The notes under the pieces were generated by a model, which saw only the letters and a program-made list of their open reading frames with translations, was not told the DNA's origin and did not search any database. From Thermotomaculum hydrothermale (GTDB taxonomy: Bacteria > Acidobacteriota > Holophagae > Thermotomaculales > Thermotomaculaceae), in assembly GCF_016592575.1 (NCBI RefSeq), contig NZ_AP017470.1, positions 1,139,471 through 1,203,470 on the forward strand: DNA of 64,000 nucleotides, written 5' to 3'. Of the stretch, positions 43,345 through 48,714 are shown one piece after another. The position numbers and the translations under genes were made by a program. Position 1 is the stretch's first letter. Each line of letters opens with the position of its first letter.

Positions 43345-43803
43345 CTATTTGAAGAGCCCTTTCTTTAACTCACTTCTTACCATTCTCTCTAAATCCCTCT
43401 TTCTCTCAGTCTCCCTTTTATCGTAAAGCTTTTTACCCCTTGCAAGAGCAATTTCAACCTTGATAACCTTTCCTTTAAGATAAAAAGCAAGGGGAATAAT
43501 TGTGTACCCCTTTTCTTTAATTTTGCCTATTAACCTTCTTAACTCGTTTTTGTGGAGAAGTAATTTCCTGTCCCTTTCAGGGTCATGGTTAAAGGTTGGA
43601 GATGCGTGTTTATATGGAGCAATATATAGCCCTTTAATATACAATTCTCCGTTATCAAAATCGCAGTAAGAATCTTTAAAACTAATTTTACCTTCCCTAC
43701 ATGACTTTACTTCAGTCCCTGTTAAAACAATACCAGCCTCAATTTTTTCCTCAATAAAGTAATTATGATAGGCTTTTTTATTTTTTGCCAGAATCTTTAC
43801 CAT
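43345..43803 (-). CDS. smpB: SsrA-binding protein SmpB
   Basis: The 152-residue protein is SmpB: 'NKKAYHNYFIEEKIEAGIVLTGTEVKS' at the start, 'LLLHKNELRRL' and 'LARGKKLYDKRETERKRD' at the end. It binds tmRNA and delivers it to stalled ribosomes. The tmRNA gene is not in this window. The ATG overlaps the upstream HD-GYP gene by 26 bases. An AAGGAG lies only one base before the ATG, closer than usual. Confidence 0.95.
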   Translation of the reverse strand: MVKILAKNKKAYHNYFIEEKIEAGIVLTGTEVKSCREGKISFKDSYCDFDNGELYIKGLYIAPYKHASPTFNHDPERDRKLLLHKNELRRLIGKIKEKGYTIIPLAFYLKGKVIKVEIALARGKKLYDKRETERKRDLERMVRSELKKGLFK

Positions 43804-45349
43804 TCTCCTTATTCATCCTTTCTTTAACTACTGACTCAAGAGCAACAACAAGTTCAGGGTCAAATTGGTCTCCTGCATTCTTTCTCAACTCTTCTATTGC
43901 CTCCTTTAAGGAGAGGGTTTCTTTATAACTATCTTCCCCTGTCATTGTTTCAAACGCTTCAGCAACTGCTATAACCCTTGCTCCTAAAGGAATTTCCTCT
44001 CCCTTTAAGCCTTCAGGATACCCAAAACCATCATACCTCTCATGATGGTACTTTATCATATCCTTCACTTCCTCAGGCATTCTTATTTTACTTAAAAATT
44101 TCATACAAACAAGGGTATGTTGCCTTATTTTCTCAACATCCTCTTCAGTTAAATATAATTTTTCATATAGGTTTGAATCAATAAGAAGAATACCAATATC
44201 GTGAAGCAATGCTGCTATTGTAACTGAATCTATAAAATCCATATCATCACTTACTTTTTCAGCAATTAGTCTTGCATATTTTGCAGTATTTAAAGAGTGT
44301 CTTTCAAAAACCTCAGACTTCTTTTTTGAAAGTTCAAGAAGGTTTAAAATAAGCCCTATAAATGTTTCATTGCACCTGTAATCCCTGAAAAGCCTTTCAA
44401 AATAAGAGGTAAGCATTTTGTTGTAATTGCTTATGTGAACAAGTTCTTCTGCATCAAAATATACACTTGAGTTTCTCAACAAACAAAGATGCACCCTTAA
44501 AGTTCTTTTATCTGCAATTTTCACTGTATAAAAGGTTTTAGGAACATCCCTTATCTCATCACCTCTTAATTTTCCATAAAAAAATTGGGAATAACTCTCT
44601 CCCTTTGAATAATCGTAAGGAAATAAATCCTTTAACGAACTCATTAAGGCTTTTTTGCCTCTAATGCTTATAGGAGCTTTGCTGTAAACAAGGTTTATAC
44701 TGTTGTTTCCTATTCCAATTGACAAAAATGCTATGTCGTAATTCACAGCAGAGGCAAAAACCTCTGCTGAAGAAACAAAAAAATCACTAATTACAGGTAT
44801 ATACTTTTTAAAAGAGGAGAAACGAATTATAATCTCTTTTATAGTTTTTAAATACTCTTCTTTTCTATCTGTTTGTTTCTTTTTCTCTACTGGTTTTTCT
44901 TCTTTTTTATCAAAAAATAAAAGAGTTTCATTAATTTCCTCAACTATTTTCTTTGAGTTTTCCAATGTTTTCTCATCGTATTGCTGCTTAGCCGCTCTGT
45001 TTCTCTCCTCAAGAAAACCGTAGATTTTATCTTTATGGTAAATTGGAGTGATTTGAACATTATAAATAGCATGATCTCTATAGTAATCCTCTACAATTGG
45101 CTCGGTCGAAATGTCATTTATAAAGAATGGAGTTCTTTTTTGTCTCACCAATTCCACAATCGGATGGGAAAAGTCATATACCTTTAAATTAGGATTTAAT
45201 TTCAAATAACCGTAATATGCAATGAGGACAAACTCTCCACTACCCTCATCCATTACATACAACAATGCCCTTGTAGTTTCATTTTTTTCCATACACTGGA
45301 AAATAATCTTTTTAAATGTAATTTCATTTTCTTTTAATTTTTCTATCAC
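43778..45349 (-). CDS. GAF/HD-GYP domain protein, c-di-GMP phosphodiesterase-like
   Basis: The 523-residue protein has an N-terminal GAF-like segment (about 20-130), a central sensory region and an HD-GYP domain at about 350-510 with 'HSLNTAKYARLIA', 'ALLHDIGILLID', 'HHERYDGFGYPEGLKGEEIPLGARVIAVAEAFETM'. The HD pair and GYP triad are intact, so it probably hydrolyses cyclic di-GMP. It starts at GTG 45349 with GGAG 8 bases upstream. That ribosome site lies in a 10-bp inverted repeat (next entry). It is followed by smpB. Confidence 0.9.
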   Translation of the reverse strand: MIEKLKENEITFKKIIFQCMEKNETTRALLYVMDEGSGEFVLIAYYGYLKLNPNLKVYDFSHPIVELVRQKRTPFFINDISTEPIVEDYYRDHAIYNVQITPIYHKDKIYGFLEERNRAAKQQYDEKTLENSKKIVEEINETLLFFDKKEEKPVEKKKQTDRKEEYLKTIKEIIIRFSSFKKYIPVISDFFVSSAEVFASAVNYDIAFLSIGIGNNSINLVYSKAPISIRGKKALMSSLKDLFPYDYSKGESYSQFFYGKLRGDEIRDVPKTFYTVKIADKRTLRVHLCLLRNSSVYFDAEELVHISNYNKMLTSYFERLFRDYRCNETFIGLILNLLELSKKKSEVFERHSLNTAKYARLIAEKVSDDMDFIDSVTIAALLHDIGILLIDSNLYEKLYLTEEDVEKIRQHTLVCMKFLSKIRMPEEVKDMIKYHHERYDGFGYPEGLKGEEIPLGARVIAVAEAFETMTGEDSYKETLSLKEAIEELRKNAGDQFDPELVVALESVVKERMNKENGKDSGKK

Positions 45350-45461: not shown

Positions 45462-45704
45462 TTAAATATCGTCGCCTGCAGCCATTACATTTGAAGGGTC
45501 AAATGCATGGCAGGGGGTAACCCCATAAACCATTCCACACTCGGGGCACTTTGTTTCAAATGTCTCCATTAAAAATGTATGATTACACTTCTCACAGGTG
45601 ATTTCAAATGGCATTGGCATAAACTGATTTGAAAATCCCATCATTCTCAATTTCATAACAACCTGTTTACCATTTTCAAAACTTCCCATGCATCCATCGT
45701 GCAT
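45462..45704 (-). CDS. small zinc-ribbon protein
   Basis: The 80-residue protein has two CxxC pairs ('CEKC' at about 37-40 and 'CPEC' at about 53-56), a typical zinc ribbon, plus two more cysteines (Cys5 and the one in 'TPCHAFDP'). I do not recognise the family. It is the last gene of the operon with the ABC ATPase, 33 bases downstream, and may be a metal-binding accessory of that system. Confidence 0.75.
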   Translation of the reverse strand: MHDGCMGSFENGKQVVMKLRMMGFSNQFMPMPFEITCEKCNHTFLMETFETKCPECGMVYGVTPCHAFDPSNVMAAGDDI

Positions 45705-45737: not shown

Positions 45738-46724
45738 TTAAGATAATCTTTCCCCTAATCTTAACCTGTTTCTATATTCAAGAAGGGTTTTATCTAACTC
45801 TTCCAATTTTTTCAGCAATTCTCTTTCCTCTTTTGTTGTCTCAAGGATTTTAACAATTCCCCCATGGCTTATAACAAACCTTTTATCCCCCATTAATGCA
45901 AGAATAGGGTCATGGGTTGCCATTAAAACAATCTTCTGCTCTTCCACAAGCAAATCTAAAGCCTTTTTTCTGTCTATTCCCGCATTCTCAATCTCATCTA
46001 TAAGTATTATTGGAGATTTACTTAAAATAGCCGTATCTGCAATCATTAAAGCCCTTGACTGCCCTCCGCTTAAAGAGGTTAAAGGGGTGTCACCAGTAAA
46101 ACTTTCTCCAGCAAGGTGATTTGCCTTTTCAATAACTTTTTCAACAATCTCTTCCTTGTTCTGTACATATCTGCTTTCAGCATGAAGAATTAAAAACTCT
46201 CTTACGCTTAAATCAATAACAAAATTCATATTTTGAGACAATTGGGCAACAAGCTTAAACTCTGAAGAAAACCTCAAATCTCTGTCAGGCACCTCACCGT
46301 TTAATAGGATATGCCTTTTAGTTGGGGTATCTCCCTGCGCCATCCACTCAATATCTGCAAGCAACCTGCTCTTCCCTGAACCTGTTGGGCCAACAATTGA
46401 TACAATCTCCCCGGCTTTTATTTCAATTTCAATATCCTCTTTTTCGCCTAATTTGTTGTATCCTCCAATAATGGTTATAGACTTTACCTGTTGTAATTCG
46501 TTTGACTCAATATCCTGCAAGTTGTTTAAAAATTCCTTAAAATTCTCAATAATAAACTCTTTTGAAAGCCCCAAATCCTCAAGCTTTTCTTCATCAACAT
46601 TTTCTATGTATTGATTTAGTGTTAGGTTATCATCTGTAATTTCAATCCCTATAGAGTCAAAAAAGTCTTTTGCGACAGGTTGTTTTTCAAAAATATCTCT
46701 TAATTTCATTTCGACAACATTCAT
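45738..46724 (-). CDS. ABC-type ATPase with N-terminal DUF1858-like domain, no permease partner
   Basis: The 328-residue protein has a helical N-terminal domain (about 1-70, 'LRDIFEKQPVAKDFFDSIGIEI') like DUF1858/ScdA_N. A complete ABC ATPase follows: Walker A 'GPTGSGKS' (112-119), signature 'LSGGQ' (218-222), Walker B 'IILIDEIENAG' (239-249) and the switch His in 'MATHDP' (His271). The C-terminus is a charged coiled coil. No membrane permease is encoded nearby. The ATG at 46724 is chosen for its GAGGT site; it lies 7 bases after the GTPase stop. A longer start (46739) overlaps that gene. Confidence 0.82.
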   Translation of the reverse strand: MNVVEMKLRDIFEKQPVAKDFFDSIGIEITDDNLTLNQYIENVDEEKLEDLGLSKEFIIENFKEFLNNLQDIESNELQQVKSITIIGGYNKLGEKEDIEIEIKAGEIVSIVGPTGSGKSRLLADIEWMAQGDTPTKRHILLNGEVPDRDLRFSSEFKLVAQLSQNMNFVIDLSVREFLILHAESRYVQNKEEIVEKVIEKANHLAGESFTGDTPLTSLSGGQSRALMIADTAILSKSPIILIDEIENAGIDRKKALDLLVEEQKIVLMATHDPILALMGDKRFVISHGGIVKILETTKEERELLKKLEELDKTLLEYRNRLRLGERLS

Positions 46725-46731
46725 ATTTACC

Positions 46732-47415
46732 TCACACATCCATTTTTCTTACATTTCCAACCTGATACTTTTCCCCTATTCTTGTCTCTCCAAGACAATA
46801 GGAGCATAAAGCAGAAGGCATAGAAAACCTTAAGCTTTTTCCTTCAAGGGTTTCAACATCCTGGCTCTGGTTTAAAAGAAGTGTAAGTTCGTAGGCACCC
46901 TGCCCTGTCAATCCGTTTACATGTAAAATCTTTGCAGTTGGATTAACCTGCCTTACCTTTGCCGCAAAAACCTCCCTTTCAGCCTGGGAAACAATGTCTC
47001 CCTTGGTTATTACCACAATATCAGCAGATTTAAGCATAGGGCCAATCTTTTTTGGGGTATTTAAGCCACTTAAATTGTCTATTACACAAACAGCAGTAAT
47101 ATCTTTAATATGAGGTGAACACCTGTTGCAAAGCCCTGCACTTTCAGAAATGAGGATATCAAGTTTTTCTTCCTTTCCCCAGTTAAAGCACTTCTCTATG
47201 TTTGAAACAAAGTAATGGTCAGGACAAAGAGCACCGGATAACCCCTTTAAAACAGGAATCCCCTGCTTTTTGAACAACAAATCGTCATCGGTTAACAAAC
47301 AGTCAAACTTAACCACACCAACCTTTTTATTTTGAGCCTTTAAAGACTCTATCACCTTCATGATTACTGCAGTTTTACCTGAAGAAGGTGGTCCAGAAAC
47401 AGTTATAAGTTTCAT
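46732..47415 (-). CDS. HypB/UreG/CobW-like GTPase with extra cysteine pairs
   Basis: The 227-residue protein belongs to the SIMIBI metal-chaperone GTPase group. It has the P-loop 'GPPSSGKT' (8-15), 'SESAGLCNRCSPH' (90-102) in place of the 'EN.GNLVC' segment of HypB/UreG, and a 'TKGD' guanine-type motif (137-140). Two Cys pairs are notable: C96/C99 and 'CSYC' C204/C207. Other family members insert nickel, cobalt or zinc. No hydrogenase or urease genes are present. Its ATG overlaps the stop of the binding-protein-like gene. Confidence 0.85.
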   Translation of the reverse strand: MKLITVSGPPSSGKTAVIMKVIESLKAQNKKVGVVKFDCLLTDDDLLFKKQGIPVLKGLSGALCPDHYFVSNIEKCFNWGKEEKLDILISESAGLCNRCSPHIKDITAVCVIDNLSGLNTPKKIGPMLKSADIVVITKGDIVSQAEREVFAAKVRQVNPTAKILHVNGLTGQGAYELTLLLNQSQDVETLEGKSLRFSMPSALCSYCLGETRIGEKYQVGNVRKMDV

Positions 47416-48641
47416 TATGATATCTCCTTTGCATTTTGGTTAAAAACAGTAAATAAATTGTCAATTAACCCCTGAATGTCATTTCCGTATACAAAATCCC
47501 ACCCTATCCAGTTAATAGGCGCATAATCAGGAAGTATGTTTTCAACTTCCGGATGGGTTGAAGGGAATAATCCTTTATGGGCAAGTATTTCCCCCACTTC
47601 CTTTGACACAAAGTAATCTGCAACCTCTTTTAACTCTTTAACAAGCTTCTTTTTTGCAACAACAAAGATTGGAGAAACTATTGAGCCGTCTTTAGGCCAA
47701 ACAACCTTAACCTTTTTTGAACCCTGCATCATTCTTGAGAAAAAGTAAGGCATAATAGTTACTGCTGGCCTAACATGAGCCTTTGTCCTTTGCACAGATT
47801 TAACCATCTGAGAGGGATGCATTGCCTTTATAAGCAATCTCCCAAGTTTTGCTACACCCCCTTCACCGTAAAGCTTGTATATTCCAAGCACCAATGCGTT
47901 AAACAAATCAAAATCTTCAACAGGAAGGGAAACCATCTGGTCGTAATCCCCCTCAAGCAAGTCTTCCCAGGATTCAGGGACAGGAAGGTCTCCTAAAATC
48001 TCAAGGTTTACAAGAAAAACCGCTGGAACAAAACCTATGAGGGAGTATATTTTTGAAGGGTCTTTCAATTGATAGTCTTTAAATGATTTATTGTACTTAT
48101 CCCATGAAATATCAATAAACTCACCGCTTTCCTTTATAATGCCACCTATACCTTTATTTGAAAAGAAAACATCAAAGCCAGCTGAAATAAAAAGGTCAGG
48201 CAAATCATCTGCGCTTTTTACATCTCTAAACCTTTCTTCAAGCCATTTTGCTCCCGTGCTTGCAGCTTCAAGTTTGGTGGAAACTGTCAGCCCTTTATTT
48301 TTACTTTGCTCAATTACCCTGTTTAACCCTTCAAGAAGGGGAATTCTTACAGGGCATGGAAGAAGCCCCTCGACTGAAAAATCACCTTCTTTTAAAGATT
48401 CCTTTAAAGTTATATCTTCAACCTGGTCTTTATTTAAATAATCGTTTATTGCTTTAATAAAATCCTTTTCATCCCTCTTTTTTAGTTTTAAAAAAGAAGA
48501 AAGTTTTAGAAACTTTCCAGTTGTTTTTAAAAAGTTAGTATCATCAACCTCTTTAAAACCATTGTTTATAAAAAAGCCCTTTAAATCAGGATACTTGTCA
48601 AATAATTCCGTAAGTTTTTCGCTACCATTTACACCGCTCAT
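47415..48641 (-). CDS. substrate-binding-protein-like gene without signal peptide, DUF1858-like N-terminus
   Basis: The 408-residue protein has an N-terminal helical domain (about 8-68, 'KLTELFDKYPDLKGFFINNGFKEV') like DUF1858, then a two-lobe fold resembling periplasmic binding proteins (such as 'LPDLFISAGFDVFFSNKGIGG' and 'DGSIVSPIFVVAKKKLVKELKEVADYFVSKEVGEILAHKGLFPS', an ABC substrate-binding pattern). There is no signal peptide or lipobox, so it should be cytoplasmic. The ATG at 48641 has GGAGG 6 bases upstream. It is the first gene of the operon behind an FNR-type promoter. Confidence 0.8.
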   Translation of the reverse strand: MSGVNGSEKLTELFDKYPDLKGFFINNGFKEVDDTNFLKTTGKFLKLSSFLKLKKRDEKDFIKAINDYLNKDQVEDITLKESLKEGDFSVEGLLPCPVRIPLLEGLNRVIEQSKNKGLTVSTKLEAASTGAKWLEERFRDVKSADDLPDLFISAGFDVFFSNKGIGGIIKESGEFIDISWDKYNKSFKDYQLKDPSKIYSLIGFVPAVFLVNLEILGDLPVPESWEDLLEGDYDQMVSLPVEDFDLFNALVLGIYKLYGEGGVAKLGRLLIKAMHPSQMVKSVQRTKAHVRPAVTIMPYFFSRMMQGSKKVKVVWPKDGSIVSPIFVVAKKKLVKELKEVADYFVSKEVGEILAHKGLFPSTHPEVENILPDYAPINWIGWDFVYGNDIQGLIDNLFTVFNQNAKEIS

Positions 48642-48672
48642 AAAATCCTCCAATATAAATTCTTACACCGAT

Positions 48673-48714
48673 ATTTTAATCTTTACTTTAAAATAAAGTT
48701 TTGATTTAAATCAA
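48673..48714 (-). promoter_or_regulatory. FNR-type class II promoter
   Basis: TTGATTTAAATCAA at 48701-48714 is an exact match to the FNR consensus TTGAT-N4-ATCAA. A TAAAAT -10 lies at 48678-48673 on the minus strand; the start predicted from it (about 48666) puts the box centre at -41.5, the standard class II activator position. It precedes the binding-protein-like gene by about 60 bases. Confidence 0.8.

Follow-up and report, generated by a model that had tools for sequence, protein, structure and literature searches.

A conserved FNR-like box before a permease-less ABC ATPase and GTPase operon of Thermotomaculum hydrothermale points to a cysteine-less HcpR1/DNR-type activator

The 64,000-nucleotide stretch of Thermotomaculum hydrothermale DNA analyzed here (the window; G+C content 34%) contains what appears to be a perfect FNR box ahead of a four-gene operon, and it raises the questions of which regulator reads this box, in response to which signal, and what the products of the operon might do. 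The box, TTGATTTAAATCAA, is located on the minus strand at 48701-48714 and is the sole exact match to TTGATN4ATCAA in the window, where versions with one mismatch occur at chance level (6 as against 7.4 expected). Read along the minus strand, it is followed after 22 bp by a -10 element, TAAAAT (48673-48678), and then by GGAGG and an ATG. If the TAAAAT is taken to span positions -12 to -7, the predicted transcription start is the G at 48666 and the center of the box, at 48707.5, falls at -41.5. The start codon is most likely the ATG at 48641 behind the GGAGG, with a predicted leader of 25 nt, and less likely a TTG at 48653 that would yield a longer protein. The initial annotation had reported an exact FNR-consensus dyad at -41.5 before TAAAAT; its arithmetic is right, and the arrangement is also conserved in relatives. 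With its exact consensus, its center at -41.5 and the 22 bp to the -10 element, the promoter is strongly reminiscent of the class II promoters of Escherichia coli FNR, but the FNR with a cysteine cluster that serves those promoters is missing from this genome.

In a genome this rich in A+T a perfect dyad taken alone is weak evidence. Pattern searches of the whole genome (2.317 Mb in one contig) located 7 exact boxes as against 3 matches to a reversed control pattern, and 13 as against 8 when T/C freedom was allowed; this excess is too weak for the genome-wide count to serve as proof. Further boxes thus do occur elsewhere in the genome, and several boxes are intergenic and precede genes for nitric oxide (NO) defence, but the excess of exact boxes over the control is small. 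The same small excess, together with the location of the dyad about 30 bp past the stop codon of the upstream pyrophosphatase gene, could be accommodated by a chance A+T-rich palindrome or by a terminator of that gene. However, comparison with relatives makes this account extremely improbable. The promoter of the same operon in a same-genus relative, whose version of the first protein (a DUF1858 and SBP_bac_6 protein, hereafter the SBP) is 86% identical, contains TTGACAAATATCAA, and that of a more distant relative, from a different genus within the family (46% identity), contains TTGACCCCGGTCAA, in both cases 21-22 bp upstream of a -10 element. The half-sites are constant and the spacer is altered in both relatives, as expected of a protein site rather than an RNA hairpin, and in the same-genus version the change in the spacer breaks the pairing of the stem.

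Conservation of the box and of its spacing over a wider phyletic range places it above chance. Relatives of the module were confirmed in 488 stretches from a collection with one genome per species, from which 80 loci were kept, 70 of them with a usable upstream region. These loci span Desulfuromonadales, Deferribacteres, Clostridia, Tissierellia, Fusobacteria, Marinifilaceae, Cloacimonadota, Spirochaetes and Acidobacteria, and the same arrangement is seen in cultured relatives, Desulfuromusa kysingii and Tepidibacter. The pattern TTGAYN4RTCAA is present in 33 of the 70 upstream regions (Markov-shuffled sequences gave a mean of 0.28 and a maximum of 2) and GTAACN4GTTAC in a further 16 (shuffled mean 0.01), with 49 loci in all having one or the other. 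Four control palindromes were recovered from the same regions at 0, 0, 0 and 1 loci, and CRP-like TGTGA sites were found upstream of the module in none of the 70. A -10-like hexamer lies 21-23 bp 3' of the box in all 47 loci where this distance could be measured, and at exactly 22 bp in 34, although these loci include close relatives and hence are not 47 independent events. Such strong enrichment and fixed spacing are again at odds with a fortuitous palindrome or a terminator.

A search for candidate regulators recovered two proteins in the genome with a Crp-type DNA-binding domain above the family cut-off, and three further proteins with a cNMP domain. The initial annotation had proposed looking for CRP/FNR-family proteins; both of those recovered belong to this family and neither is an FNR. 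The first, of 215 aa (C1:697 kb; L001:1054-1698), possesses the helix SPETISR and is the only Crp/Fnr protein here with a recognition helix (P-E-x-x-S-R) suited to TTGA, its P180, E181 and R185 conforming to the published specificity rule for reading this sequence. The second possesses a CRP-type helix, SRETVTR, and is expected to read TGTGA. The 215-aa regulator has zero cysteines after its likely ATG, and its orthologs in the family similarly lack the cysteine cluster; it therefore cannot carry the oxygen-labile 4Fe-4S cluster of FNR. Its best match among solved structures in the PDB is DNR (E=5e-19). In PMC1274295, HcpR1 with Ser/Pro at 180 and Glu at 181 is paired with TTGAC sites and HcpR2 with Pro at 181 with GTAAC sites, the DNR site is given as TTGATnnnnATCAA, and all three regulators are described as lacking the FNR cysteines. 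HcpR1 of Desulfovibrio desulfuricans binds haem (PMC5701242), and in Clostridioides difficile the strong response of hcp and frdX to NO depends on HcpR (PMC12915319).

The remaining boxes in the genome provide additional clues regarding the signal. Intergenic examples precede the gene for a 736-aa quinol NO reductase, qNor (TTGACAAATGTCAA), and that for cytochrome bd (CydA), with TAAAAT at 21 and 23 bp, respectively. Two more lie between divergent genes, one before the gene for a flavodiiron protein, opposite that for a NifX-like protein, and one before the gene for a NapH-like ferredoxin membrane protein, opposite that for a citrate-synthase-like protein. Genes for a multihaem cytochrome and for an extracellular beta-helix protein are likewise preceded by a box. 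All other boxes lie within genes or at a gene end, and no good -10 element was found at 22 bp from the cytochrome c and flavodiiron boxes. Divergent from the qNor gene, and sharing its box region, is a tandem pair of genes whose products, on inspection of the sequence, resemble microcompartment shell proteins of the EutN/CcmL type (L122:1624-2156, G000:C1 near 906 kb). Thus, qNor, the flavodiiron protein and cytochrome bd, all of them NO-defence genes, have the box upstream, as is typical of HcpR1/DNR regulons. Cytochrome bd is often under FNR control, and its box, along with the exact E. coli consensus at the class II position, could be read as the mark of a true oxygen-sensing FNR that turns the module on at oxygen loss. 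This is highly unlikely, since the only two Crp/Fnr proteins of a one-contig genome are a cysteine-less TTGA-type regulator and one with a CRP-type helix, and the boxes drift to the HcpR1 form TTGAC in relatives and the HcpR2 form GTAAC in other phyla rather than towards the site of an oxygen regulator. Hence, a perfect 'FNR box' should not be equated with oxygen control before the cysteines of the regulator have been checked.

Taken together, the regulator class and the putative regulon suggest that the box is probably the site of a cysteine-less HcpR1/DNR-type activator in an NO-responsive class II promoter. NO is a likelier signal than oxygen, though the 215-aa regulator could sense some other ligand. 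Of the two possibilities raised by the initial annotation, activation by loss of oxygen through FNR does not fit a regulator without cysteines, and activation at a class II position by another CRP/FNR-family protein is the one that stands. The similarities to the regulons of delta-proteobacterial HcpR1 and Pseudomonas DNR encompass the box type (TTGAC/T-N4-G/ATCAA), a cysteine-less regulator with Pro at 180 and NO-defence targets. They differ in that hcp is absent here and that the target is an ABC ATPase and GTPase module that is not named in the passages of PMC1274295 consulted. Given that neither this genome nor the family has an hcp gene to control, 'HcpR' is used here as the name of a type and does not imply proven orthology.

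The operon, on the minus strand, encodes four proteins. The SBP (47415-48641; 408 aa from the ATG at 48641) has a predicted structure (pLDDT 89.5) that matches ferric-binding proteins and their relatives, indicating an FbpA-like fold. No relatives in the PDB were detected by single-sequence search, and a profile was needed. Profile alignment places the paired tyrosines of the Campylobacter jejuni ferric-binding protein at Y299 and F300; with one of the two iron-binding tyrosines aligned to a Phe, metal binding by the SBP is uncertain. Beyond this substitution, it differs from FbpA-type proteins, whose fold it is predicted to share, in having DUF1858 fused in front, no export signal (inspection of the sequence by eye revealed no signal peptide) and an LPCPVR motif whose Cys96 is invariant in 44 sequences. 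The second gene (46732-47415) encodes a GTPase that matches the UreG/HypB fold and belongs with UreG/HypB/CobW-like proteins; its invariant CPDH motif aligns to the CPH of UreG, consistent with the CPxH/CPH metal motif, and it possesses further invariant cysteines in CxxC motifs. The third (45738-46739) is an ABC-type ATPase with no partner permease in the operon, and in a profile comparison its N-terminal domain matches the DUF1858 part of the SBP with 94% probability. The fourth (45462-45704) is an 80-aa cysteine-rich zinc-ribbon protein, conserved in the module, with a weak resemblance to the ribbon of HypA. After a gap of 113 bp the module is followed, on the same strand, by a gene for a protein with GAF-like and HD-GYP domains (43778-45349), which has a sub-cut-off match to a model of NosR-family c-di-GMP phosphodiesterases.

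The SBP_bac_6 and ABC_tran domains, and a fold like that of ferric-binding and aminoethylphosphonate-type binding proteins, could be taken to define an ordinary importer of iron or organophosphonates that borrows a permease encoded elsewhere. However, both the SBP and the ATPase begin with a DUF1858 or DUF1858-like domain, in the former where a signal peptide would be expected, the operon also includes a GTPase and a zinc ribbon, and no permease recurs among the neighbors of the module in the 80 loci. This makes an importer highly unlikely, and the protein make-up without a recurrent permease instead favors a cytosolic role in the assembly or repair of metal centers, which we regard as plausible but somewhat short of probable. 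Nickel insertion by HypA/HypB and UreG offers one parallel, with a similar GTPase fold, CPxH motif and small zinc-ribbon partner. The module differs in the extra invariant CxxC motifs of its GTPase, in scores far below the curated cut-offs (59.7 bits against HypB, cut-off 121.2; 36.4 bits against UreG, cut-off 204.2) and in that hydrogenase or urease neighbors do not recur around it. SufC, of the Suf system for Fe-S assembly, is a cytosolic ABC ATPase that works on metal clusters without a permease, and by analogy the ATPase of the module might act in the same manner; unlike Suf, the module combines its ATPase with a GTPase and an SBP, and SufB/D-like partners are absent from it.

An alternative in which the HcpR/DNR-type control is right, with the module as a dedicated maturation system for Hcp, draws on genomic context. 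The hcp gene adjoins the module in 30 of the 80 loci, either divergent with a box of its own or downstream in the same direction. Among 293 clostridial genomes Hcp is present in 21/21 with the module as against 127/272 without it (p=4.5e-7, with kinship ignored), and of 48 module-bearing genomes identified from loci outside the host's own class, 42 have Hcp. However, those 127 module-less Clostridia have Hcp all the same, and so does E. coli. Moreover, Hcp is absent from all nine genomes of the host's family, the host included, yet four of these have the module, and the box is present in all three whose promoter region is covered. Thus, Hcp cannot be the only client of the module, and a dedicated Hcp-maturation function is unlikely; as a partner in this genome, Hcp is ruled out by its absence.

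Returning to assembly or repair of metal centers under an NO-responsive activator, the following scheme may be envisaged. The 215-aa regulator would sense NO or nitrosative stress, probably through haem, bind directly at -41.5 and recruit RNA polymerase as class II activators do, to a promoter that has a -10 element and would need no -35 element. The operon would thereby be turned on along with qNor, the flavodiiron protein and cytochrome bd. In the cytosol, the FbpA-fold protein might hold a metal or metal complex, the UreG/HypB-like GTPase and the zinc-ribbon protein might deliver the metal, and the permease-less ATPase could drive its exchange, as suggested by SufC. The initial annotation's view of a redox-linked module gains support from these contextual associations; the putative link of DUF1858 to iron repair fits them too. 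More tentatively, the module might represent a widespread and hitherto undescribed system of anaerobes that rebuilds metal cofactors destroyed by NO, under HcpR1-, HcpR2- and DNR-type activators across phyla. It would then take its place beside Suf/Isc and YtfE/RIC, the latter being a di-iron protein that repairs NO damage. As such, it may fill a gap in the understanding of NO survival among anaerobes, gut Fusobacterium and Peptostreptococcus included, and its association with HcpR-type control of nitrosative stress, seen in several phyla, opens its role to direct testing. Literature searches on the module, on DUF1858 with Hcp and on HcpR with ABC transporters recovered no description of it; individual genes might have been listed earlier as HcpR targets (the PMC1274295 supplement, RegPrecise). 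A DUF1858 protein of Bradyrhizobium has been reported to be strongly NnrR-dependent (PMC6710368).

Some further features of the gene neighborhoods deserve mention. Genes for Crp/Fnr proteins, YgbA_NO family proteins and Rrf2-type regulators are neighbors of the module in 14, 10 and 8 of the 80 loci, respectively. The ten loci with a YgbA_NO gene ('nitrous oxide-stimulated promoter'), among them L071:9990-10304, are from Deferribacteres and a subset of Desulfuromonadales, and in these the gene comes after the module. Several Clostridia (G187, G224, G232, G366) have 2-3 copies of the GTPase, some of them distant (220-300 bits), which suggests paralogous modules with other clients. A fixed gene order is seen in Marinifilaceae (L095, L100, L107, L108, L117, L120), where the genes divergent from the module are a large one, a pair that likely encodes an ABC exporter and one for a Crp/Fnr protein.
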